Shown here: piece by piece, positions 29,449 to 54,070 of the stretch
Numbering within the stretch: the first letter of the stretch is position 1
Layout: each line of letters starts with the position of its first letter
Assembly (NCBI GenBank): GCA_963989385.1
Contig: OZ022500.1
Location: forward strand, 118,213,842-118,277,841
Origin: Ctena decussata
Taxonomy: Eukaryota > Mollusca > Bivalvia > Lucinida > Lucinidae
DNA length: 64,000 nt
Direction of reading: 5' to 3'
Position numbers and translations under genes: made by a program
The notes under the pieces: generated by a model
Database searches by the model: none
The model's input: the letters and a program-made list of their open reading frames with translations, nothing else
Told to the model about the DNA's origin: nothing

Positions 29449-29454
29449 GCGCAC

Positions 29455-30455
29455 TATGGCAAGCCATTTTACTATTTATTATGCATAGTAGATATCTTTT
29501 ATAGTATATTAGATATCTAATATGCCAATTAAGATATCTAATATAACATAAAAGATATCTAATATTAAATATAAGATATCTTATATCCTATTTGAGATAT
29601 CTGATATAGGATATAAGATATCTTATTTAATTTTTCATATAAGATATCTTATATGTTATTTTAGATATCTTATATGTAATATATGATATCTTAATTGGCA
29701 TATTAGATATCTAATATACTATATAAGATATCTAATATATTATATTAGATATCTAATATGTAAAATTAAATAAGATATCTCATATCCTATATAAGATATC
29801 TTATATCCGATATAAGATATCTGATTTACTAAATAAGATATCTTGCATGTCTTATAAGATATCTTATAGGCTATATAAGATATCTTATATATTGTGTTGT
29901 GTCTTATGGAAAAGTCAAATAAGATATCTTATATACCTATATTAGATATCTTATATAGTATATAAGATATCTTATAAGACAAATAAGATATCTTCTATAG
30001 GAAATAAGATATCTTATATGGGATATGAGATATCTTATTTAATTTTACATATTAGATATCTGATATAATATATTAGATATCTTATATAGTATATTAGATA
30101 TCTAATATGCCAATTAAGATATCTAATATAACATATAAGATATCTAATATAACATATAAGATATCTTATATGAAAAATTAAATAAGATATCTTATATCCT
30201 ATATCAGATATCTTATATAGGATATAAGATATCTTATATGCTATATTAGATATCTTGTATGTTATATTAGATATCTTAATTGACATATTAGATATCTAAT
30301 ATACTATATAAGATATCTTTATTATCATATAAGATATCTTATATATATAAGATATCTTATATAATAAATAAGATATCTTATAAAATATATTAGATATCTG
30401 ATATAATAAATGAGATATCTACGTTCCATAATAAATAGTAAAATGGCTTGCCATA
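29455..30455. mobile_element. Inverted-repeat element filled with a 21-bp-phased GATATC palindrome array
   Basis: A 29-bp terminal inverted repeat begins TATGGCAAGCCATTTTAC at 29455 and is mirrored to 30455. The flanks repeat GCGCAC (29449-29454, 30456-30461), a likely 6-bp target duplication. The interior is AT-rich with 43 copies of GATATC, most inside longer palindromes such as TTAGATATCTAA. Of 42 spacings, 35 are exactly 21 bp, four are 26, and the others are 44, 22 and 18. Open frames of 83-104 aa across it are 7-residue repeats forced by the 21-bp period and are not genes. Confidence 0.85.
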
Positions 30456-30461
30456 GCGCAC

Positions 30462-31481: not shown

Positions 31482-34263
31482 CTCAGCGTCTGTTGAAGCT
31501 GTTGTTTGATCATCATTTTCATCAACACGGACCTCCTGCTCAACTTTTCCACCTTCAATGTGCTCCAATAGATTGTCTGAAAATGCCACGAAAATTATCC
31601 TTTATTATGATAAAGTACAGACAAACCTATCTTAAGGGGTCACCCCATGGGACCCACAAAAGTTGGCTGCTTAAGACAGGTGACCCCTTAATACAGGTTC
31701 ATTTGCACTGTATTTTGGTCTAAGGGACCCCCAAAAAGTGTCTGCTAAAGACAGGTGACCCCTTAGTACAGTTTCTAACTTGTATGCTGTATTTGTATTT
31801 GATACATATTGCCTTTATTTATATATTCAAGATATGGCTTTATTATGATCATCTGATTATCTGTGACAATATATGATTCAACAAAGCTCTAACTAAATAC
31901 CCTTTGATTTGATGGATGGCGGACTTGCGATTTTAAGTCTTTCTCAACTGTACTTCAGCCATATCAGGACGATGGGATAATGAAAGGCTGTGTGCAATGG
32001 AGCCCCGTTTTCCTTTGAACAGATCCTCGCCTCAAGGGGGAATCTAACCTGGGACCGCTAGATCAGCAGGCCAAGTGCTAAACCTACTGAGCTACCGGGG
32101 CTGATGAACGATCCTCTCTGCTTACGTGAAATATTCTTGAAAGGGCCATTAAACTGAAACTAAAAAGCTGTAATGATTCATGGCAACGCATGTAGTATGC
32201 TTTTTTGTAAATTATGTGGTCCCATGATTATAAAACATGTACACCCAATGCATGACAGAATGACTAACAAAACGGTTGAATTTGTATGTCGTCTCAAAAT
32301 GGTCAACGCTTAAGGGGCATTACACACAATAAGACTACCATAACAGAAATACACGTGAATAAAGTGATCAAAGTACCTGGTAATTTTTTCCAAAGCTCTG
32401 GTAAGCCAAAGGTCATAAGATTGAAGAACTGGCTGTATAACATCCCTTCTGTCTGGTCTGACTCTAGCATGGCATGTTGTATGTCATCTTTCTGCAGGTC
32501 GACAGGTTGCTTACAAAGACAGTTGAATTGTCCATCACAGTCTGCTAAATGCCATCCCTCTGTGACAGAACTGTCTAAGGGTAGACCTTGAAGTTTGATT
32601 GGCAAGGTACATAACTGCTTTGATCGGTGTTCACCAGGATTCGGATCAGCAATGTACTGAAGGCGCACCAAATTATCTAGCATTAAAATTAAATGACAAG
32701 ATCGTAAGTTTACCCATGTCTTTGTTTCACCAGTAGCTGCTCCATATGGTAGATTATGCTCTTTCAGATAGGTGTTGTAGTAACACAGATCCTTACAGGT
32801 GCTACCTTTTAACTCTGTTTCAGCTTGATTTAAACTTGACGTTGCTCCAGCTGCTGACGTAATGTTGAACACAGAGCCTATGCTCTTATATTCAATCAGT
32901 AGTTTACTACTGTTGCTTTTCTGAAAGACACCATTGAATTTTTTGTTGTGAATATTTAGTAATATTTCATACACTGAATACAGTTTTTCAAGTTTCTTCT
33001 TCAGAAAAATCTCTGGTGTTTTGTGTCTTCTGATGGTTTCTTTATTAATGAAATTTTCTAGCAAGATCTGTGTTTCAATTGGCAGTTCCAGAAACCATTC
33101 TTGGACAGTGTTGAAATTGTCAGTTGAAAGAGGTTTACTCAAGATACCATTGAAACACAGTTCACACTGATTTTGCTCTCCATATTCTATTGTACCATCA
33201 ATCTGAGTTCCGGCATTCCAAGTTTTGGAAACATTCTGAAACTGCTTTGTTTCCACAGCATCACGAAGGGTAAACCTGTAGACTTTGTCATCCTCAGATA
33301 CATATTCTTTCAGGGCCTCAGACTGTATCAATAAAACTGATTCTAAATATACTTTGTGCTTTGTCTTTAGCAAATAAAACACTCTCAAGCACAGATCATC
33401 GAAAGTCACCTCCAATTCTCTATTTTGAAAGAAGACAGCCCATAGACTATTTGTGTTTCTTGACTGTATTACATCGAAACACACAGTATGTGCAATATTA
33501 CCTGGACAGTAGGTATCTGTCAGTGACTTGATTTCACTGTCTAATATAGATGCAATATGTTCTTGTCCACATGCTATCCTAATTTGTTTTTCTTTATCTG
33601 TGGCTTCATACCTTAAGGTCTTTTGCCTTATTTGTTCATCAGATGAACGGATCCAGTACTTACTGCATTCAACCAAATTAAAAAGAGACTGGAATTTCGA
33701 ATATTTTAAGTCTAAAACTTGTTCATATGAAAGGTCACGCTGTTGGAAGTCAACCTCTCTAGAGAATGCATTTTCAAACCAACAAATTCGTTTCCATTCA
33801 GACTGTGTGAAATATGGTTTGTGGTCTACTATAAGTGTTGAAATATTATTTTCATTCACAGAAATTTGTTCAAAGACTGTTGAACATTGGCTGATGTATG
33901 TTTTTGAAACCAATTTGTACAGTTCTAGAGAAGAACTAACAGGTTTGGTACATTCTTCAGATAAAAGCTCGTGTTCAATATTTTTCACGACAGTGGCGCA
34001 TGCTCTGGATGAACTAGCATATGAGAAGAAATATTTTAACACTGCCAATACAGTAGCACATTCTCTTCCACAAACTGTCTTTGGCCCACCTTGCAAATTT
34101 TGTAAAGCTCTTTTTAGATTATATTTATTTGCCTTGTCATCACTCTTCTTCAAAAATGTGAAAACATCTTCAATACTAATATAATGCTCATTTAAAGTAT
34201 CGCCATCTTCTTTGTAAAGTTTAAATAACTTTGAAAACTTCATACTTGTCGAGGACTGCAATT
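31482..34263 (-). CDS. Uncharacterised protein gene, large exon plus one downstream exon
   Basis: The large exon 34263-32377 has one open frame of about 630 codons and splices (phase 1, donor GTACTT) to 31576-31482. There GAC is rebuilt across the junction and an acidic tail (EQEVRVDENDDQTTAST) continues to a GTATGT donor. The first in-frame ATG is at 34243 (MKFSKLFKLYKEDGDT); an acceptor CTGTTTCAG sits just before the exon, so a 5' exon probably exists. The protein is soluble-looking, with no signal peptide or membrane span. The N-terminal third has a Cys-containing helical segment (TVCGRECATVLAVLKYFF). The C-terminal part has MLDNLVRLQY, KQLCTLPIKLQGLP and a Cys cluster (DCDGQFNCLCK) that may bind metal. 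From memory this C-terminal pattern recurs in unnamed, multi-copy bivalve proteins, but I cannot name a domain or function. The 3' end was not found. Without the last splice the frame stops about 40 bases into the intron. Confidence 0.7.
31617..31775 (+). repeat. CAAACCTATCTTAAG dispersed repeat
   Basis: Third copy of the repeat at 16796-17215 (TTGGCTGCTTAAGACAGGTG, CACTGTATTTTGG). It lies in the intron of the uncharacterised gene. Confidence 0.5.
31975..32105 (-). repeat. tRNA-like SINE head
   Basis: The minus strand from 32103 reads CAGCCCCGGTAGCTCAGTAG (A box) and later CCAGGTTAGATTCC (B box variant). tRNA-like but with an A in place of the conserved TTC, so a SINE remnant. Confidence 0.45.
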
Positions 34264-34385
34264 CTGAAACAGAACATCACACAGTGTATAACCCTGAGAA
34301 TAATATTAACTTCTCACTACCCAGGAATTGAGACCTATGCTTTTTGTAAAAGAACGCATAATTATATATTAAGTTGGGTTATAAA

Positions 34386-36612: not shown

Positions 36613-37947
36613 TGATACACCTGTATTTGCGTTTGTGAGAGAGTGGAAAAGTAATTGTATTTGGGATTACTAGCTAGGGGATGGGCTTCTTTTGTTTATT
36701 CTTGTAAACCACTCAGAATGCGCCCCCTTCCTCCTACTCCCCACTTAGGGAGGAGAAGGAACGGTCATCAATGACGGAGGCCAAGTCGCCTGAGCTGGCA
36801 ACAACCTCCGCCCGCTTCACGCTCAGAAGGGGGTACTACGGCTCTTCATCGTGGTTATAGGTCCCGTCAGTTTTACCTGACGTCCTGGCGATACATACTA
36901 TAGAAATGATCCCTAAAAGTATGATCTTACATAAACAGGTATTTCCTACATATATAAATTATATACAGTTTAATCGTAAAAGGGTTAAGTAATCACTACT
37001 TAAAAGTTCAATTTTAAAGTTCTTTTGATGATCAAACGCTATCTAGTTGGCTTAGTTTTGATGTTGCATATAAAAAATTTTGTTTTTCTTTCTTTTTACT
37101 TGTTTTAAGGTCCTCATAGGTAAGGAGGCGAGTGAAAAAATGCACCACTTTGAACTAAAATGTTTATAAGGGCGATTACATACCTCATGTGTACATCTCT
37201 TAGTTATGCCGCTTAGATCGGATAGAATAGAATAGAAAAGTCGATACACAGGCGGTAAACCTATTCGTTGATTTGCGTTTCCTACCGAGTCAGTCGCAAC
37301 TACATGAACACCCCTGGTTAACTATGCATACAGGTGCTGCTTCGTAACGAAAAACAAACGATCTGGTTAAGCCACAATGACCAAATAGTTTTGGAACTAT
37401 GACTCCTTATCGTTTCGTAACAGCTCTTTTTCGTTTTGTAACAGCCTTGAAAACATATTTAATCAGGTGTGAGGCTTTGGTTTACAAAAGATAAAACGAT
37501 ACAGCCAGTCTCAACCGGCAACCTCCGAAATCTCGATACCTGGTTTCACTGGGTGAGTCTGGTCTGGTCAAGTCTATCCCGAAACATTGCATTGCAAGGT
37601 CATTTCTGTTTTTTAATATCCTAGTTATAATTTTTGCATCGTATATATGTGGGAGTGTGCGTGGGACAGAAGAGGGGGGGGGGGGCGGGGGCGGGGAGAG
37701 AGAGCCGGAGGCGGGGTCGAGAAAGACTGGTTTTGAACTGAACCATCCTCAATAAATAAAATCTATTTATTCATTTACTTATCTTTTACATCACATACAC
37801 ACATACGACTTAAAGACGGTCTCTCTCCACGGGGTCCTGTTTTCAGCTGCCAAGTTCTTCCCTGTCCGCTCTTATATATCGTATATCTATTTCTTCTTCT
37901 ATCTACTTCCACTTCTTTTCCTTTTCACTGTAGAACCGTCTGTCACA
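36613..37947. other. No gene seen
   Basis: 36715-36900 is a GC-richer block (GCGCCCCCTTCCTCC, CCCGTCAGTTTTACCTGACG) that looks like a repeat end but has no partner here. 37670-37710 is a G-rich, GA-rich tract. Confidence 0.35.
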
Positions 37948-40900
37948 CCAAACTAGTTCTCAACACGTCCTACCCCATTCATAGAATATCGTGAAACGGG
38001 CTGTGGTCGGGGTAGAACGTGTAACTTTTGGCCTAAAACTTCTATAATACGATTCTAGTTCATTCATAAACAGCCCTCAATAAGTCCATCTCGTCCGTAT
38101 CCCGTCCGCAGTCCGTTCGTATCAAGTTCATATCGGGTCGGATTGCCCGTTCACCTCGTGCAGACACCGTTTCCAAGCAGTCCAAGCACGTCCGTGGTCA
38201 GTTCAGCCCCGTTCGTAGCTTTTCCTACTACGTACCCAATACGTCCAAACTAGTTCGTAACTCGACTATTTCGTTCAAAAGCAGTTCTTCTCGTTCTGAC
38301 CACGTCATCACCTCGTCCCTACCGTGCAGTAGTGCGTGCAAAACGTAATTGCAATCACGTCCTGGCCCGACGGCTACAAAAATCCGGCGCGTTCTACCCA
38401 GTTCTCAATCGCGTTCATCACTACAAGGTGTGCAGAGCATTGCATCCTTGTGAGTATCATGCCTCTTAAGAGCGGAGCTAGAAAGGACGGCCATACTAAA
38501 CCAGCTACTGTTAGATCCCAAAGCTGCATCTCCTCTGAAGCCCATTCACCTCATCCCCAAGGTGTAGAGTCTCCTGAGTCTGGGAGTCAAGAGAAGAAGA
38601 GTGCTGCATACCTTGGCTGAGTTTGGTCTGTCTGCAAATCGGAAGAACGAGCTACAACGGACTGGTCAGCTTGCACACGTACTGCCAATTGATTCCCGAC
38701 CGCAGCATGTTGTAATACGTCCTAGTAGGATCGAAGTACGGCAATGCCGTTCGTAATACGTCCATCTCGTTTTAAGAACGTTGCCACTCCGTTTAATTCC
38801 AGAACGGGGTGGTCGCCAGAAAATTTCAAACATGCTCGACGTTCTACCCCCATCACACCAAACTCGTTCTCACTACGTTCTGGAAAATTTTGTCAAACGG
38901 GCTCAAACTGCGTGGGAACGGAGTGGACGTAGCAGCAACGTTTAAAGGTCTGTTAACGAACCTCATGGACGGACTAGGACGGGTTCGAACGGGAAGGGTG
39001 CTCCAGAACGTCGAGCATGTTTAGAATTTTCTGGCGACTATCCTGTTCTGGAATTAGACGGAGTGGCAACGTTCTTAAAACAAGATGGACGTACTACGAG
39101 CGGAATTGCCGTAGTTCGATCCTACTAGGACGTATCACAACGTGGTGCGGTCGGTAATCAATTGGCAGTACGTGTGCAAACTGACCAGTCCGTTGTAGCT
39201 CGTTTTTCCGATTTGCAGACAGACCAATCTCGACCAGTGTATGCAGCACTCTTCTTCTCTTGACCCCAGACTCAGGAAAAGGCACAGGAGACTCTGTAAC
39301 TTGGGGATGAGATGAATGGGGTATGGCAAGCCAAGTGCACAATAAGTCTACACAATCCCAGGTTTTCTGAAACCTATGATATAGATTTTAAAACCCATGA
39401 TAGAAATCACAAACCTATGATAGTGATTTTCAAACATAGGTTTGAGTAAAAACCAGTGTTTGTAATTTACAAACCTATGTTTGCTGACTTATTGTGCACT
39501 TAGTATGGCAAGCCAAGTGCATAATAAGTCTACAAACATAGGTTTGACCTAAAGCTATATATTTTAGTTGGTTGGGACCGGAGCCTTTTTGTCTGTTGCT
39601 TGGTCCACCGGGGCTCAACTGGTGACCTTCTTTTGCTTCAGATTTCCAGTGGGGTTGTTTGGCAGGACAGGGATCTCCACCTGTCAGACGGCCCGTTGTA
39701 TCTGTTGAGTCCTCGTCTTTGCTTCTTCATGGTCTTGAAATTTGATTTATGTGTTTACCGTGATGATTCATTGACGAGTTAGAGGGTTATCATGTGAACC
39801 GAACAACCAACTAAATGTTTTGTACCACTTCAGAAACTGAGGGTGAGGTTGGGCCTGTAAAATCGATTTAAGCCCCCCAGTAGTTCATTACTGACCGTTC
39901 TAAGGCGGTAGTTCTGTTGTGGTTCTCTGTTGCCTGTTTTTGGTGTCAGAGTTTCTGTGATGTTTTACCTTATGTATGTTCTTATTATTTTTGGTTCGGT
40001 TTGGGTTGCTGAGTGGCCACCTTTTGGGAACAAGCTGCTCACTCGGTTGGCCATATGTTCTCTGTATCTTGATTATTTGTAATCTTAGTTGTTTCCAACT
40101 ATGGTTTGAGGGCTGGATTTGGATTTTGATTGTTTCAGTTCCTGGTCTTTGCATACTTTTTATTTAAAAATTCCAAACCTATGTTTGAACTTCTAACCCA
40201 GGTTTGAAATTCTCTAACATAGGTTTTCAAAGTTTTATCACAGGTTTTAAATAAGACATTAAAAAAACAGTGATATAACCTTCTAACCTATGTTCGCAAC
40301 AAACTATGCTTGCTAAGTGCACAATAAGTCTACAAACATAGGTTTTTAAATTACAAACACGAGTTTTTATTCAAACCTACGTTTGAAATTCACTATCATA
40401 GGTTTATGGTTTTCTATCATGGGTTTTAAAATCTCTATCATAGGGTTCAGAAAACCTGTGTTTGTTAATTTAAAACCTATGTTTGAACTCTAAACCCCTA
40501 ACTGAAATTTATAAACCTGTGTTTGTAGACTTATTATGCACTTGGCAACCATAATTTTGTCCAAACTTATGTTTGAAGGTTATATCACAAGTTTTGAAAT
40601 GTCAGATTCTGAAACCTATGATAGAGATTGTAAAACCCATGATAGAAAAACATAAACCTATGATAGTAATTTTCAAACATAGGTTTAAGTAAAAACCCGT
40701 GTTGTAATTAACAAACCTATGTTTGTAGACTTATTGTGCACTTGGCTTGCCATACTTATTGTGCACCAATCATAGGTTTATGGTTTTCTATCATTGGTTT
40801 TAAAATCTCTATCATAGGTTTGCCATATCAGAGGAGATGCAGCTTTGGAATCTAACAGTTCTTGTTTGGAGGCATGATACTCATAAGGATGCAATGCTCT

Positions 40901-41505
40901 GCACACCTTGAAGTGACGAACGCGATTGAGAACTGGTTAGAACGCGCCGGATTTTTGTAGCCATCGGACCAGGACGTGATTACAATTACGTTTTTCACGC
41001 ATTTGAGACGAGATGAGGACGAAGTTAGCACGAGAAGAACTGCTTTTGAACGAAATAGTCGAGTTACGAACTAGTTTGGACGTATTGGCAACGTAGTGGG
41101 AAAAGCTACGAACGGGGTTGAACTGATCACGGACGTGCTTGGACTGCTTGGAAACGGTCTCTGCTCGAGGTGAACGGGCAACCCGATATGAACTTGATAC
41201 GAACGCACTGCGAACGGGGTACAGACGAGATGGACATTTTGAGGACTGTTTGAACGAACTAGAATCGTATTATAGACGATATTCTATGAACGGGGTAGGA
41301 CATGTTGAGAACTAGTTTGTTGTGACAGGGGCCTTTTGGAGCACCCTTCCCGTTCGAACCCATCCGAATCCGTCCATGAGGTTCGTAAACAGACCTTTTA
41401 ACGTTGCTGCTACGTCCACTCCGTTCGCACACAGTTTGAGCCCGGTTTGCAATTTTTTCCAGAACGTATTGAGAACGAGTTTGGTGTGATGGGGGGTATA
41501 AGCCA
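37948..41505. mobile_element. Large CpG-rich fold-back element, split by a later insertion
   Basis: Arms of about 900 bp: 37948-38847 is mirrored by 39003-39320 continued at 40830-41333. Examples are ACCAAACTAGTTCTCAACAC versus its inverse near 41315, and GCAGAGCATTGCATCCTTGT versus its inverse near 40890. A 155-bp unpaired spacer (38848-39002) has an inverted partial copy at 41338-41505. Composition is rich in ACGT and CGTCC words, unlike the AT-rich surroundings. No frame over 94 aa looks like a transposase. The right arm is cut exactly by 39321-40829. Confidence 0.7.
39321..40829. mobile_element. TATGGCAAGCCA-ended element with ~21-bp AAACCTATG units
   Basis: Begins TATGGCAAGCCAAGTGCAC and carries the inverse GTGCACTTGGCTTGCCATA at 40735-40753, with extra partial copies of both at 39489-39540, 40310-40330, 40520-40550 and 40756-40770. 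Flanking blocks are runs of 18-21-bp units around AAACCTATGATAG or CAAACATAGGTTTG (39367-39490, 40165-40310, 40330-40520, 40560-40720). A non-repetitive core (about 39560-40160) has no known protein. Terminus shared with 29455-30455. Its insertion interrupts the fold-back arm. Confidence 0.65.
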
Positions 41506-44741: not shown

Positions 44742-47408
44742 CTATGGATCACATTCCAAGGGGCACAGCTTCGTTACTGGTCTGACTAGCGTGCCCTGTC
44801 CCACCTGCAGCTTCGCAACGCGCACCCGTCCGTCTGTCCCTGGATACACCTCAACTACTCGCCCGAGAGGCCAGTTTCCTCGTGATGTGTCCGTTGAAAC
44901 GATTAGTACCACCTCGCCAACTCGTATATCACGACGCTCCCGAGGCCATTTCGTTCGTGCACCGAGACTGGGTAGCCACTCCTGTAGCCACCGCTTCCAG
45001 AAATGGCGAACAAGCTCCTGGACCCGGCGCCATCTCTTCCGTAGATTAAACTGTGTGTCGTCCACTGTGGTTGGTGCGAACTGACCTCCGATCTGTCCAT
45101 GTAAGAAGTGGTTTGGAGTCAGTGGCACGTCATCGGCTGGGTCTGTGGATTGGTAGGTTAGCGGTCGGGAATTTATAAGTCCCTCAGCCCCTATTATTGC
45201 CGTCAACAGTTCCTCATCTGTAATGTCCGCATTTCCTAGAATGGCATTAATGGCCCTCTTCGCTGACTTTATCATTGACTCATGGACTCCACCAAAATGT
45301 GGAGCCAATGGTGGGTTGAAATGCCAAACTATCCCTTTGTTAGCGATTGATTCTTTGATTTTCTCCTGATCCAACTGCGATATTAGCGATTTTAGTTCCT
45401 TGTCAGCCGCTCTAAAATTCGTTCCATTGTCCGAATACATTTCCTCGATTAGACCCCTTCGGCTAGTCATTCTGTATAAAGCATTTAAGAATGAGTCCGT
45501 ATCAAGTCCAAATGCCATTTCTAGGTGAACTGCCCTCGTAGCTAGGCAAGTGAATAGGCACAGGTAACGCTTTTGTCGTCGTTTTCCTCGTCCTTGGATC
45601 GTTATGAATGGGCCTGCGTAATCCACAGCTGTTCTTGTAAAAGCTTTGAGTGATACTTTGAGCCTTGAAAGGGGCAATGGCGCCATGATTTGCTGACAAA
45701 CTTTGGCCTTCCTTCGTCGGCATTCAGCGCAGTCCTTCTCCCACTCTCGAATAACTTCACGGCCGGAAACCACCCAGTAGCGAGCTGATAAGGCGGCTAG
45801 CGTCTGATTTGTGCCTGCCGCGTGATTGCCCTTTTCGTGAAACTCTTTTACGATTAATTTAGTGATCCAGCTTTTTCTTGGTAAAATGACAGGATACCTT
45901 ACATCATACGAGAGGAATTTTGCATTCTTCAACCGTCCATCAGAACGCAGCAGTCCATCGTTGTCTAATTTTGGCTGTAATCTGAGAAGCTTGCTGTGTG
46001 CAGGCAGGGACCTTCCCCGAGACAAAGCTGTCCACTCCTCCCAGAATTCTGTGCTCTGTGCGTATCTAACAAGCTGAATTTCTGCCTGCCTCAGCTCGTC
46101 AGTCAGTAACTCTCCATATATTCTGTCTGTCTTTTTCCGTTGACAATTCTGTATGAAACGATTAGTCCAAGACTGTATTCTTCTTAACTTCAACCAGCTC
46201 GAGTAGCGTCTCGGATCTACTGGAAACACCGTGTCCTCTGCTATTGTGACGAAACCATATGTCTCATTTGAGCTTTTTGACTCTTGATAGGACCCTGCCG
46301 CTCGATTTAATTTCGAAAGTCTCTTCATTTCATTATCATCTCTGGGTTTCTCAAACGATTTGTTGACAGGCCACGTCTCGTCCGACTGTCTCAGAAATTC
46401 GGGTCCTCTCCACCATGTAGAACAGTTAACCAGCTCAGATGCTTTTATTCCTCTGCTCAACATGTCGGCTGGGTTCTGGCTTGTAGGTATGTATCTCCAC
46501 TGTTCAGGATTAGTGAGCGTTTGTATCTCGCCTACTCTGTTAGCCACGAAGGGTTTGAAGTCGCGACTTCGGCCTCGAATCCACCATAAAGTATTGACGC
46601 TGTCGGACCAGAATATGGCGTCACTTACTCGAGTCTCCATAACTTCTGCTATTCTTGAGGTAAGTCTCAACCCGATGACTGCTCCCATTAACTCCAGTCG
46701 AGGGATACTTGTTGCGATGCTTGGTGCAACGCGGGATTTCGCAGCTACTATTTCACTTGAGACGGAACCATCTTCGTAGTTACACCTCGCATATACAACG
46801 GCTCCGTATGCATTTTCTGATGCATCCACAAACGTATGTAGCGTAATGGTGCCCGGAGTTCTGTCCTTGTGCTGAAGACATCTGGGAACCTTCATCTTTG
46901 TGAGCGTCTCAAGTTCGCCGAACCATGCACGAGCGCAGCTGACCAAGGGTTCGGTAAGCTCATCATCCCATTCAAGGCCGGCAGTCCACATGTCTTGCAA
47001 TAACATTTTTGCACGTATCGTAAAGGGAGCTAGAAACCCGATAGGATCGAACAACGTAGCGATTCTCTTCAGAAAGTTGCGCTTTGTATACAGCATGTCG
47101 CTGTCCGGAACGTGCTCTCTGAATGTGAATATGTCTTCTTTGGCTAGCCACCATACCCCTAGCGTTTTAGTGCACGGCAACTGGTCCCGATCCAGGTCCA
47201 CTTCCGACTTCCGGACTTGTATTGGAACCTCTGATAGCACAGTTGGTGAGTTGGAAAGCCATTTGCGTGCGTGCATTCCGGCTTTGGTTAGTAGACACGA
47301 TAGTTGTCTATACAAGCAGATACCCTGCTTCTCATCCAGCACAGAGTCCATTGAGTCGTCCATGTACGTTGCTTTTAAGATCGTCTCAGCAGCCCTACCG
47401 TAGTCATT
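44742..47408 (-). pseudogene. BEL/Pao gag-pol, third segment (reverse transcriptase C-part, RNase H, integrase, DUF5641)
   Basis: Continues in the same frame after the TAA. In order: the YMDD catalytic box with SMDSVLDEKQGI, the Peptidase_A17/RNase H-like region (HTFVDASENAYGAVVY, FWSDSVNTLWWI), an integrase zinc-binding region, and the integrase core with its three acidic positions (DYAGPF, YSDNGTNF, GGVHESMIK). A C-terminal DUF5641-like domain follows (WPLGRVVEVYPG, LVRPVTKLCPLE). About 870 uninterrupted codons. These domains look intact apart from the upstream stop that separates them from the rest of the polyprotein. Confidence 0.88.
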
Positions 47409-49313
47409 TTAATGTTTTCTGGCATGGTGCTGTAAAACAAACTGTGCTAGGAACGGAGACGAGTTTATGCCAAACACGACACGGTCGAACTCGTATACGT
47501 CTGGTGATCGATCCTGGTTGATTCCCCTCCATAAGAAATGGTGATATGGCTTATCTTCTGGTGCTATCCCTATCCGAAGATACATTTCCGCTATATCGCA
47601 GACCACTGCAACCGGATATCGCCTGAAGCGCAACAATACATCAAACAAGTCTTGCTGTAACTTTGGTCCTTGGTGGATGACGTCATTTAGGGATACCCCG
47701 TCACACTTCGCCGACGCATCGAAGACGATTCTTGTCTTAGTTGTCTCTTTATCTGGTCTGATCACTGGAAAATGTGGTAGGAACCACTTTGACGTATGCT
47801 TTTTCTGATCACCAACTTTCTTGATGTACCCCTTTTCAATGTATTGGTCGATAATTGCGCTGTAGGCAATAGCGATCGCTGGTGATCTGACAAGCTTCTT
47901 CTCAGTATTTTCTAATCTCTTTAACGCCATTTTATAGTTGTTTGGCAGCTTCGGCTCAGTGCCTCGCCAAGGAACACCGACCCGGTACATACCATGTTCA
48001 AATCGAATCGATTGCTCTACTTTTCTCAATGCAGATTGCTCCTCGATGCGGACGATTGGTTTGTCCCCCATAGTGCCGGTCCTTACTACAGACATGTCGT
48101 CAATTTCCCAGAAGCGCTTTAAATTTGCATTCAGCTGATCTATTTCTGCTCGATCTTTAATAAAATATGTGCTGGCAAAGTGCGTTTGCATTGCTGTTTT
48201 ACATGTTTCATCTGATCCAGGATTTCCAATACAGGTCCATCCCAATGGCGTCAATCTTGCGATCGGCTCCCCAGGTCGTCCCCTGACTTCCTGTATTGCG
48301 CAATGGAGATCTGCGCAATCCAGGCCTATAAGAATATCAACGACTGGTCTCTTAGCAATACTTGGGAAGCTGATATGCCGTAGATGTGACCATCTTTGGG
48401 TGTACTCGGCCCAGTCGAAGGCTGACATAGTTCCTGTGACCCTAGTCGCCGTGTATGCTGTAACGCCCAGTTTTACATCACCAGTTACACTTTCCAATTC
48501 CACATTAACCGGCCGTGTTTCGAACGTTTCCACCTGTCCGTTTAAAACATTAACTGTAACTCTCTCTGTCTTACCTTGCAATCCAAGCTGTGCGGCGACA
48601 TCAGAGTTAATGTACGTCTTAGTACTCGCATCGTCCAGGAGGGCATTAACCTTCAGCGACCGATCTCCATTCTTCAGTATGACTGGAACAGTCCGTAGTG
48701 CGATGAAATCTGCTGTAGAAACGTTGCTTGCCGTCATAGTGGTCTGTTCCAAGCGTTTATTCCCCTCCGAGCCGGAAGTGATCTGCGTACCGGATGCTCG
48801 ATCCAATGCCATGTCCGTTCTGTTCTGTTCAGTCGATTTCAGTTTAGTTTCTGGTGACGTTCGGTGCAGCAATCTGTGATGCAGTTCTTTGCATCCATTC
48901 AGGCCACACTGACGACTTCTTGGGCATGTTTTGCCGGAATGTCCCCCTGCCAAACAGCGGAAACATAGTTGACAACGTTTAGCGATTTCCCACTTTTCAG
49001 AAATACCTTTTTGTTTGAACGCCTGGCATGTCCAAATCCGATGGTCTGCTCCACAAACTTGACAGCACTGTGTCTTCTTGGCTCGAGTATCTTCGTTATC
49101 GCCAAAGAAAGTTCGTGTATATCTTTGTCCCGGCCTCGGTGGTGTTGTCTGTGCATCTGATACCCTGCCTTTCACACCATGGACGGTCTCAGAAGCGACT
49201 GTTAAGAATTCCGATTCTTGAATTACCCACTTTCGTAATGTTACTACGGACTGAGTCATATTGTTGTCAAATACCCATCGATGGTAGCTCGCTAGCATAG
49301 ACTGTGGCAATTT
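47409..49313 (-). pseudogene. BEL/Pao gag-pol, second segment (zinc knuckles, protease, reverse transcriptase N-part)
   Basis: Same reading frame as the first segment, directly after the TGA. In order: SESVV-type linker, zinc knuckles (CQVCGADHRIWTC and CFRCLAGGHSGKTC), an aspartic protease-like region with LLDDASTKTYI where the active-site triad is expected, a pre-reverse-transcriptase region (GLDCADLHCAI, LGWTCIG), and reverse transcriptase motifs RIVFDASAK, CDIAEMYLRI and FGINSSPF. It ends at an in-frame TAA (47411-47409) shortly before the catalytic YMDD box. There is no ATG near its start, so it would need readthrough. Confidence 0.85.
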
Positions 49314-50546
49314 TCATTGTAACATTGAGTATAAGGAACCGCTACCGAGCTCGTGATGCTGATTTGTTTCTCTCAGATTTATAACTGCTATATCCAGCAG
49401 GTCAGCGAATTGGTCAAGGTCTTTGGCATTTCCGGTTCGAATTTGTCGGAAGTTCTCCAATTCCTCTATATAAATGGCTATTTGGCGACGCATACCTCCG
49501 AATTTTCTTTCCAGCCGCTCTTTGGCGGCCTCATATGCTGCTCCTGAATGTCCCAGGTTTTCGATCGTCTTGAGAGCTTCCCCCGCTAAGTACTGCCGTA
49601 GCTGAAGCAATTTGTATTCCCCAGTAGCTGGCGCGCTGTCGATGCACGCGAGAAATGCCGCTTTCCAGCTCTGGTATGTCCTTTTATCACCAGAGAATAC
49701 AGGGATCTGCACCCGTTTTAATTGGCGCCAAAGGTCCTGTCCAATAGAGGGACTCTCGCAGCTAACTGGCGGCACAGATGGGTCTCCGTGGAATTGATCA
49801 CGTGGCTCAAATGGTGCGGCGCGTGCATTCATGACAGAATCAGTGTGCGTCGTCTCTTGGGAATTTTCACGTTGACTTTTCCCCACATCTTCGTGCCATC
49901 CGGCACGTGCAATAGGCGTGCGCTCATTTGCCGGGACTTTGTTCATGCTCGAATTACCAGTTTCATTTGAGAGAGTTGAATACTGTCTATTTTCGATAGG
50001 CACTGCAACTGGGCCATTATTTTGTCTAAATTCTTGTGAAATGGTTACCTCGCGTGATTCCTGCAGCGGTTCTGTCGACACGTAATCCTTTTTATATGTC
50101 TCTGAGTTTTCATTTTCAAGGTTCAATCCACGCCGAATGTCAATTGTTAGCAGTTCCGCGGACGATGAATTTGTCGCGTTAAATTTTAGCGATTCCAAGA
50201 AATCTCGGGTTGATTTTGACACTGTGTCATAGTCCTCTTCTATCCGTAACATCTCGCCGACAATGCGTTCACACTTTTTATGTTCTTTTTGTCTGGTATA
50301 GAAGTTCGAGAAGTTTTCTAAAATATCTAATACGATCTCCAAACAGCTTTCCAATTTCTTGCGGGCCTCGATAACGGCAAGACGGCTGTCCGAATCCTGC
50401 TCTTCTAACAATAATAGCAGTCTATTCTGCGACCGAGTAAAGTTAGATTTCGCCCGAGCTTTATCCTTTTTGAATCCATTTTCTATCTCCGTAACGTCTA
50501 CGTTGCCGTTCTCTATTGTCTCCCTAGTTTCCGATGACGCCATCAT
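49314..50546 (-). pseudogene. BEL/Pao gag-pol, first segment (gag, DUF1759-like)
   Basis: First segment of the broken gag-pol frame. Starts at the ATG at 50546 (MMASSETRET), outside the LTR; the upstream part of the frame lies in the LTR and primer region and is unlikely to be translated. About 410 residues: a charged, probably coiled N-terminal half, then from about residue 275 a DUF1759-type gag domain (QIPVFSGDKRTYQSWKAAF, LAGEALKTIENLGHSGAAY). Ends at an in-frame TGA (49316-49314), inside what is normally one continuous polyprotein and before the zinc knuckles. Confidence 0.85.
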
Positions 50547-50589
50547 AAATGTATCTAATTTCTGTCGATTTCCGATATAAAAAAACCTC

Positions 50590-50602
50590 GCTCTGCTACC
50601 AG
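50590..50602 (-). other. Primer binding site of the BEL/Pao element
   Basis: On the minus strand TGGTAGCAGAGCG begins six bases inside the 5' LTR; TGG complements a tRNA CCA end. The tRNA cannot be assigned by eye. Confidence 0.65.
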
Positions 50603-50607
50603 AAATT

Positions 50608-50849
50608 TGTTGTGGAGATTTTCCCGATTGTGGAAGACAACAAAATGAAGAACTTCGATTATAAGTTCCTAAAATTCGATTTATTTTTAACACTGAGCCC
50701 AAACGATAATGGCGTCAACTTTTCATCTATATCTAATCCCTAGCAACAACGTTAAAATCACGTCAACTCTCGTTACGCCGTACGTTATAGATGACGTTAC
50801 TCACCCATAATGCAAAGCTTAACTATAAGTCTAAAAGTTCTTTTCTCCA
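50608..50849 (-). repeat. 5' LTR of the BEL/Pao element
   Basis: 242 bp. On the minus strand starts TGGAGAAAAGAAC and ends CCACAACA. Promoter and polyadenylation signals must lie here, but I see no clear TATA box. Preceded by the TCTTG target duplicate. Confidence 0.93.
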
Positions 50850-53406: not shown

Positions 53407-53719
53407 CCATTAATTTTCTATTCGGGACAACTACTTAAGCACTTTAGGGTATATATGGATATATGGAGCTCCGTCCACCTCTATGTTGAAGCTCGTGTGC
53501 TAACACTGGCATATCATCCTCATCTTGCTCTTGCCCTTTTATCTTGACAGCAACTCATAGGGGTCATTGTCATATTCAGTTCACAGTTTCAGACCTCTGG
53601 TGGAGACAGGAACTTCTTATGTCTTCCCTAGAACCCCTGTCCACAGACAAAGAAATCATACATGTAACATGATCGCTGAGAGCAACAGCAAACTTGCTCA
53701 CTTAGTGACAAAAGACCTC

Positions 53720-54070
53720 ACTTCTGGTCATCCTCAAGCGGATTACACTTCTGGTCATCCTCAAGCGGATTACACTTCTGGTCATCCTCAAGCGGATTAC
53801 ACTTCTGGTCATCCTCAAGCGGATTACACTTCTGGTGATCCTCAAGCGGATTACACTTCTGGTCATCCTCAAGCGGATTACACTTCTGGTCATCCTCAAG
53901 CGGATTACACTTCTGGTCATCCTCAAGCGGATTACACTTCTGGTCATCCTCAAGCGGATTACACTTCTGGTCATCCTCAAGCGGATTACACTTCTGGTCA
54001 TCCTCAAGCGGATTACACTTCTGGTCATCCTCAAGCGGATTACACTTCTGGTCATCCTCAAGCGGATTAC
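53720..54070 (+). repeat. Minisatellite, 13 x 27 bp
   Basis: Thirteen near-perfect copies of a 27-bp unit (begins ACTTCTGGTCATCCTCAAGC). Only the fifth copy has an obvious change (CAT to GAT). Because 27 is a multiple of three, long open frames appear on both strands (nonapeptide TSGHPQADY on plus), which is not evidence of coding. Confidence 0.9.

Follow-up and report, generated by a model that had tools for sequence, protein, structure and literature searches.

A non-autonomous, foldback-like transposon family built from GATATC palindromes at a 21-bp pitch in the genome of a lucinid bivalve

The locus and its surroundings

Positions 29455-30455 of the window (the whole stretch of 64,000 nucleotides of Ctena decussata DNA that was analysed) are occupied by a mobile element of 1,001 bp, whose body consists almost entirely of an array of GATATC palindromes (Table 1). 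Its ends form a perfect 29-bp terminal inverted repeat, TATGGCAAGCCATTTTACTATTTATTATG, for which none was expected (0 in 100 shuffles), and both these ends and the GCGCAC target duplicates reported in a preliminary description of the locus are present. The element is non-coding, the longest stop-to-stop frame within it being at most 86 aa. The terminal inverted repeat string has no match among the viral or genome contigs searched (0 in viral_contigs, 0 in genome_contigs), and searches of the openly accessible literature did not find the element in print. Of two papers on bivalve transposons, PMC10294476 mentions neither IS3EU nor foldback elements, and PMC8905726 contains none of the relevant terms.

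Table 1. Coordinates of the element, its array and the second-family copy within the window
Feature	Position	Strand	Remarks
Left target-site duplication copy, GCGCAC	29449..29454	.	exact 6-bp match to right copy
Left terminal inverted repeat, TATGG start	29455..29483	+	29/29 identical to right end
Array of 43 GATATC palindromes	29490..30420	.	35/42 spacings 21 bp
Left arm, array-wide inverted repeat	29490..29868	+	379 nt, 92% complementary to 29940-30318
26-bp-step linker, TTTAATTTTTCAT orientation	29623..29642	+	reverse complement of 30166-30185
26-bp-step linker, opposite orientation	29754..29773	-	reverse complement of 30035-30054
Central linker, 38 nt, non-array sequence	29885..29922	.	sits at mirror axis 29904
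Right arm, array-wide inverted repeat	29940..30318	-	379 nt, 92% complementary to 29490-29868
26-bp-step linker, reverse complement of 29754-29773	30035..30054	+	linker pair 13/25 perfect
26-bp-step linker, reverse complement of 29623-29642	30166..30185	-	linker pair 7/31 perfect
Right terminal inverted repeat, CCATA end	30427..30455	-	29/29 identical to left end
Right target-site duplication copy, GCGCAC	30456..30461	.	exact 6-bp match to left copy
Second-family copy, TATGGCAAGCCAAGTGCA ends, AAACCTATG[AT]T[AT] motifs	39322..40754	.	commonest spacing 21 bp
Unrelated abundant 620-bp repeat inside second-family copy	39546..40165	.	about 98-99% identical elsewhere

The window holds several other features. 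An intronless frame of 657 aa (32303-34276) has no Pfam match and eight relatives in a protein search, one of which, at 67% identity, is named as coming from a Candidatus Thiodiazotropha MAG and is perhaps host carry-over. On the minus strand lie a U3 snoRNA (36708-36928, 163 bits) and BEL/Pao-type retroelement frames (44742-50714), with Peptidase_A17 and DUF5641 in 44742-47408. The U3 snoRNA and the Pao peptidase mark the host as an animal. A 27-bp tandem repeat at 53719-54070 comprises 13 copies with 99% matches and is crossed by open frames on both strands. Two regions, at 17.6-19 kb and 7.2-8.4 kb, top a lag-21 scan of the window but contain no phased motif array and were rejected as candidates. 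Phased triples of GATATC also occur at 36 viral loci, with a longest run of eight (L030), and at six prokaryote loci; these are short runs that do not resemble the array of the element, are probably coding, and were likewise set aside.

Sites, spacings and motif

The 43 GATATC sites extend from 29491 to 30414, with nine more elsewhere in the window, and are separated by steps of 21 bp (35 times), 26 bp (four times), 44, 22 and 18 bp, which reproduces the counts first given for the locus; Tandem Repeats Finder likewise reports a period of 21 and 43.4 copies. The four longer gaps had been said to carry a sequence of alternating orientation and do so, their linkers containing TTTAATTTT[T/A]CAT.

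The motif common to the sites is the 8-bp palindrome AGATATCT, exact at 42 of the 43, whilst the longer palindrome that had been attributed to each of them, TTAGATATCTAA, is exact at five only. The commonest 12-mer around the sites is TAAGATATCTTA (15 sites), and TWAGATATCTWA fits 28. GATATC itself is invariant in the site list by definition and information is carried by its neighbours, with A at -1 in 42/43 and T at +6 in 43/43. Further out, W is free at -2 and +7, an ATAT flank is kept more loosely, and the centre of the linker has three free bases. Deviations from the majority base number 38 in 344 cells at -6 to -3 and +8 to +11, and 1 in 86 at -1 and +6; no probability is attached to these counts, since the units of an array are related to each other.

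Mirror symmetry and helical phase

The higher order of the array is mirror symmetry, a palindrome of palindromes. A tandem unit of 131 bp had been proposed, but 131 bp is the distance between oppositely oriented long linkers, measured at 29617-29748 and 30029-30160, each of which joins mirror-image linkers, and the array is not a head-to-tail 131-bp satellite. Mirror axes lie at 29904 and, from an older event, near 29611. When the linkers are compared as tokens, a mirror is found at linker 19, with 18 same-length pairs of mean identity 0.86 (five of them perfect), and the older mirror at linker 6, with five linker pairs of identity 0.83; a third axis at linker 32 and a 26-unit direct repeat follow from these two. 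Such a layout is what successive snap-back duplications would be expected to leave. A single strand of the element can fold on itself from one end to the other (-359 kcal/mol), and a 7-bp sub-period is present in the array, the match being 0.56 at lag 7 and 0.70 at lag 21 against a null of about 0.35.

Within the window copy, the two 379-nt arms differ at 30 positions; GATATC accounts for 108 of the arm positions and for none of the differences (hypergeometric P 2.6e-5). For linker pairs 1-15, which align better, mismatches number 0/90 in GATATC versus 17/235 (P 0.0046), and across three reflections, which are not independent, 0/138 versus 28/355 (P 1.1e-4). The sole core mismatch among the four arm pairs tested is in the sub-palindrome I17 (1/18 mismatches).

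The palindromes were originally described as facing the same side of the helix. Within blocks this is correct, the phase coherence R being 0.98-1.0 (7/7 blocks); for the array as one piece, however, R falls to 0.31 at 10.5 bp, because 26 bp corresponds to about 2.5 turns and each 26-bp linker therefore shifts the register by half a turn. Of the original picture, the mobile element, its inverted ends, its target duplication and a block-wise helical pitch stand, whereas the single face overall does not.

Copies in the host genome

A search of the host genome (1,657,992,415 bp in 245 contigs) with the element as query gave 1630 candidate places, of which the best-scoring 40 all proved to be copies, that in the window included; an exact 6-bp duplication is present at 34 of them. 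Four copies (L079, L089, L091 and L092) were set aside before alignment as truncated or composite, leaving 36. Four others, L083, L086, L087 and L093, share homologous flanks and the same duplication and are one insertion multiplied together with its surroundings; L086, L087 and L093 were dropped and L083 kept, giving 33 independent insertions. Exact 6-bp target duplications flank 31 of these 33, in 30 different sequences, and at lengths of 2-5 and 7-11 bp the two sides agree at 0-3 of the 33.

The 21-bp pitch is retained in other copies, most of which also repeat the irregular spacings 26, 26, 44, 22, 26, 26 and 18 in that sequence. The preliminary description had considered that the array might be a collapsed assembly; its recurrence in 33 independent insertions, nearly all with exact duplications, is incompatible with a one-off collapse. 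Half of the aligned copies (18/36) have lengths of 959, 980, 1001, 1022 or 1043 bp, which are steps of whole 21-bp units. L091 is a longer variant (1,628 bp) in which the ends are intact and GATATC occurs 65 times. At 102-1120 of L089 a copy of the element is flanked on both sides by CATATC and adjoined by a degraded GATATC-rich stretch, and has perhaps inserted into the array of another copy.

Changes in the palindrome are rarely shared between insertions

Inserted copies of a non-autonomous element should drift, and only mobile copies leave descendants; variants private to one copy were therefore compared, across the 33 insertions, with variants common to at least three. The 258 GATATC sites have 47 singletons, three doubletons and one variant in at least three copies, and the 599 linker sites have 252 singletons, 51 doubletons and 75 such shared variants (Fisher P 1.8e-4 for singleton:shared); the 58 sites of the inverted ends have eight singletons and no doubleton or shared variant. 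For the whole AGATATCT the ratio of singleton to shared variants is 59:1 versus 252:75 in linkers (Fisher P 1.4e-5). Without L083, there is no core variant common to three copies. When all 36 aligned copies are used, the duplicated insertion included, the contrast is weaker (63:6 versus 263:82, P 0.0037).

On a tree built from linkers only, core changes are terminal in 52 cases and internal in three, compared with 347 and 122 for linkers (P 3.3e-4), and on a tree from all sites the terminal:internal counts are 49:5 and 330:139 (P 1.1e-3). Counted per unit, a shared variant is present in 1/43 cores and 27/42 linkers (P 3.3e-4). Of 67 shared variants in the 35 regular units, only 1 falls inside the eight AGATATCT offsets and the edges of this block are sharp, although offset 15, outside AGATATCT, is likewise free of shared variants. 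Singletons per site are also rarer in the core (47/258, 0.18) than in linkers (252/599, 0.42), linker variation being possibly inflated by unit-to-unit conversion and misalignment; the core rate is close to that of the inverted ends (8/58, 0.14). All these counts describe the best-scoring 40 copies, among which degraded copies are under-sampled. A 30-copy subset with at least 40 GATATC is biased by its selection and was left out of the results.

Changes in the core are thus private and almost never shared, a pattern from which we infer that purifying selection for mobility acts on the palindrome. Since shared changes in AGATATCT are almost absent, transposition probably requires the palindromes in cis.

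A second family with the same pitch

A second family of elements has the same terminal 12 nt as the GATATC element and an unrelated motif. The copy in the window (Table 1) contains 34 sites of the 12-mer AAACCTATG[AT]T[AT], with 15 of 33 spacings at 21 bp, rising to 16 when the foreign 620-bp repeat is subtracted (641 - 620 = 21); a related array runs on past this copy to 40827, and an inverted paralogue of the sequence adjoining it lies, uninterrupted, at 38507-38581. The end sequence TATGGCAAGCCA is found again at three positions of the window (39322, 39504 and 40743). The 620-bp repeat, at about 98-99% identity among the best 40 of 1023 candidates (window copy included), looks recently active.

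The genome was queried for this family with 40166-40827, as the 620-bp repeat took the matches when the whole element was used. With the best 40 of 417 candidates scored, 20 loci were returned; both ends are present in 18, among them the window copy. Of the spacings in these 18, 187/406 are exactly 21 bp (a total summed from per-locus lists), so that the 21-bp pitch is common to two families with different motifs. Among the 17 apart from the window copy, seven have exact 6-bp duplications and three have duplications agreeing at five of six positions. The second family has no 7-bp sub-period, its match being 0.25-0.27 at lag 7 and 0.41-0.43 at lag 21. The ratio of singleton to shared variants in 13 copies does not differ significantly between motif (47:8) and spacer (119:28; P 0.54). 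Single matches to TATGGCAAGCCAAGTGCA in four viral contigs, each lacking an inverted partner or phased motif array, were taken as chance and rejected as relatives.

The second-family copy is hosted by a large foldback-like inverted-repeat structure, rich in GTYC/GRAC, at about 37940-41495. In its two long arms the best period of GTYC/GRAC is 10.5 and 10.4 bp, about one per helical turn; coherence at 10.5 bp is matched by 3% and 2.7% of shuffles, in arms that are mutual copies, and is not significant in four shorter segments (9-23% of shuffles). This helical periodicity is suggestive only.

Relationship to known elements

The GATATC element is a member of a non-autonomous, foldback-like DNA transposon family. 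In common with MITEs it is non-coding, with inverted ends, target duplications and many copies, and in common with foldback elements it has long inverted arms of short tandem repeats. Its length of about 1 kb exceeds that of the usual MITE. Its termini, TATGG..CCATA, and its 6-bp target duplications (31/33 insertions) match the signature of IS3EU (/GingerRoot), given in two sources as TAYGG..CCRTA in fungal families, TA..TA ends and 6-bp duplications (PMC12730594, PMC10045372). It differs from IS3EU as described there in being non-coding, in its shorter ends (29 bp, against more than 30) and in a body made of a palindrome array. In the host genome, a search for an IS3-like DDE transposase gave 146 matches to PF13683 (best 150 of 1949 candidates scored); paired TATGGCAAGCC ends were absent at the 15 of these loci checked, and no transposase with the ends of the element was found. 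Many of the matches sit in frames over 1000 aa, which we read as resembling LTR retroelements.

Long inverted arms that are internally tandem-repeated are shared with Galileo, of the P superfamily, and with Foldback (PMC3688188). The tandem repeats of Galileo hold further transposase (THAP) sites, thought to add binding specificity, whilst for Foldback and Phantom such a role of the repeats is called untested in the same paper. The Galileo sites were footprinted (PMC3688188), whereas those of the present element are putative; here, moreover, the predicted site is the repeat unit itself, present 43 times at a fixed pitch, and the ends and duplication length fit IS3EU rather than the P superfamily. 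Tetris of Drosophila virilis is also a non-autonomous foldback element with tandem repeats in its inverted ends, but these are 220 bp long, its duplications are 8-10 bp and its authors assigned it to Mutator (PMC4079207). Short non-coding elements with an internal array or minisatellite include the BrickBuilt MITE, with a 23-nt unit (PMC4596501), and Xenopus Xmix/Xstir and bivalve pearl/CvA (PMC9659126); the parts of these two papers available do not describe a palindromic unit with constraint across insertions. The element had been thought to belong to no class known by name, yet internal tandem repeats in foldback elements and MITEs, some with transposase sites, are published (PMC3688188, PMC4079207).

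Tn7, Mu and CACTA elements possess several transposase sites near their ends. In contrast to the handful of sites in these systems, the array of the present element occupies the whole body.

Models for the origin and function of the array

The model favoured here, with moderate confidence, proposes a foldback-like family moved by an IS3EU-type transposase, with a palindrome array generated by snap-back and offering sites to a dimeric domain, most simply that of the transposase. The non-autonomous family would most likely be mobilized by such an enzyme, and the AGATATCT array forming its body would have grown through mirror-image (snap-back) duplications, one after another. A dimeric DNA-binding domain would most likely dock at every palindrome, and within a block, where 6-8 sites follow each other at 21 bp, the dimers would lie on one face of the helix. 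The mechanism is proposed by analogy, Galileo repeats having transposase sites. Dimeric protein binding was one option in the preliminary description and now appears the favoured one, given an 8-bp palindrome retained in the transposing lineage and a sister family that keeps the pitch with another motif; snap-back copying, offered alongside it, likewise finds support, as the source of the mirror-image layout and not as a rival explanation. Several points count against transposase sites: the whole array does not lie on one face, the 7-bp sub-period offers another origin of the 21, the sister-family test was not significant (P 0.54) and the 15 PF13683 loci checked are without the paired ends of the element.

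A further reading, put forward tentatively, is that the IS3EU-type elements in the host genome would be 'ladder transposons', whose body would consist of helically registered dimeric transposase sites at a two-turn pitch, with a motif that switches between families. If so, cooperative loading, and not end catalysis alone, would shape the element by selection, and the sequence of the site would switch between families together with the DNA-binding domain.

Rather unlikely, although several features fit it, is a by-product origin, in which the array would have grown from a 7-bp AT-rich repeat (3 x 7 = 21) by slippage and snap-back, its palindromes staying alike through repair or conversion at hairpins, with no protein site. 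The 7-bp sub-period, the nested mirror axes, the whole-unit length steps in 18/36 aligned copies and the end-to-end fold of the strand (-359 kcal/mol) are all in line with such an origin. However, homogenisation should affect tracts, and the protected block is exactly 8 bp and sharp-edged; core changes do occur, but are private, and the sister family has a 21-bp period without the 7-bp sub-period.

It is more doubtful still that AGATATCT is a putative site for a host chromatin, replication or transcription protein exploited by the element, or that hairpin RNA from the array feeds small RNAs. An 8-bp palindrome with sharp bounds would suit the first of these and 379-nt arms of 92% complementarity the second, but a single host factor would not account for a sister family that shares the terminal 12 nt and uses another motif. 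Finally, short-period palindromic repeats are hard to assemble, but an assembly or cloning artefact is exceedingly improbable and already refuted for practical purposes by ordered irregular spacings that recur on numerous contigs, in copies whose flanks differ and whose 6-bp duplications are exact.

Implications

Foldback-like elements commonly hold tandem repeats, and the role of these as binding sites receives an evolutionary test here, in that dozens of insertions in one genome display private decay and almost no shared change in an 8-bp palindrome. The favoured model would have this constraint serve transposition through a bound protein, most simply the transposase, and the sister family, in which a different motif is set at that pitch, gives a clear prediction on binding. 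The element also illustrates how a transposon can seed a regular palindromic satellite.
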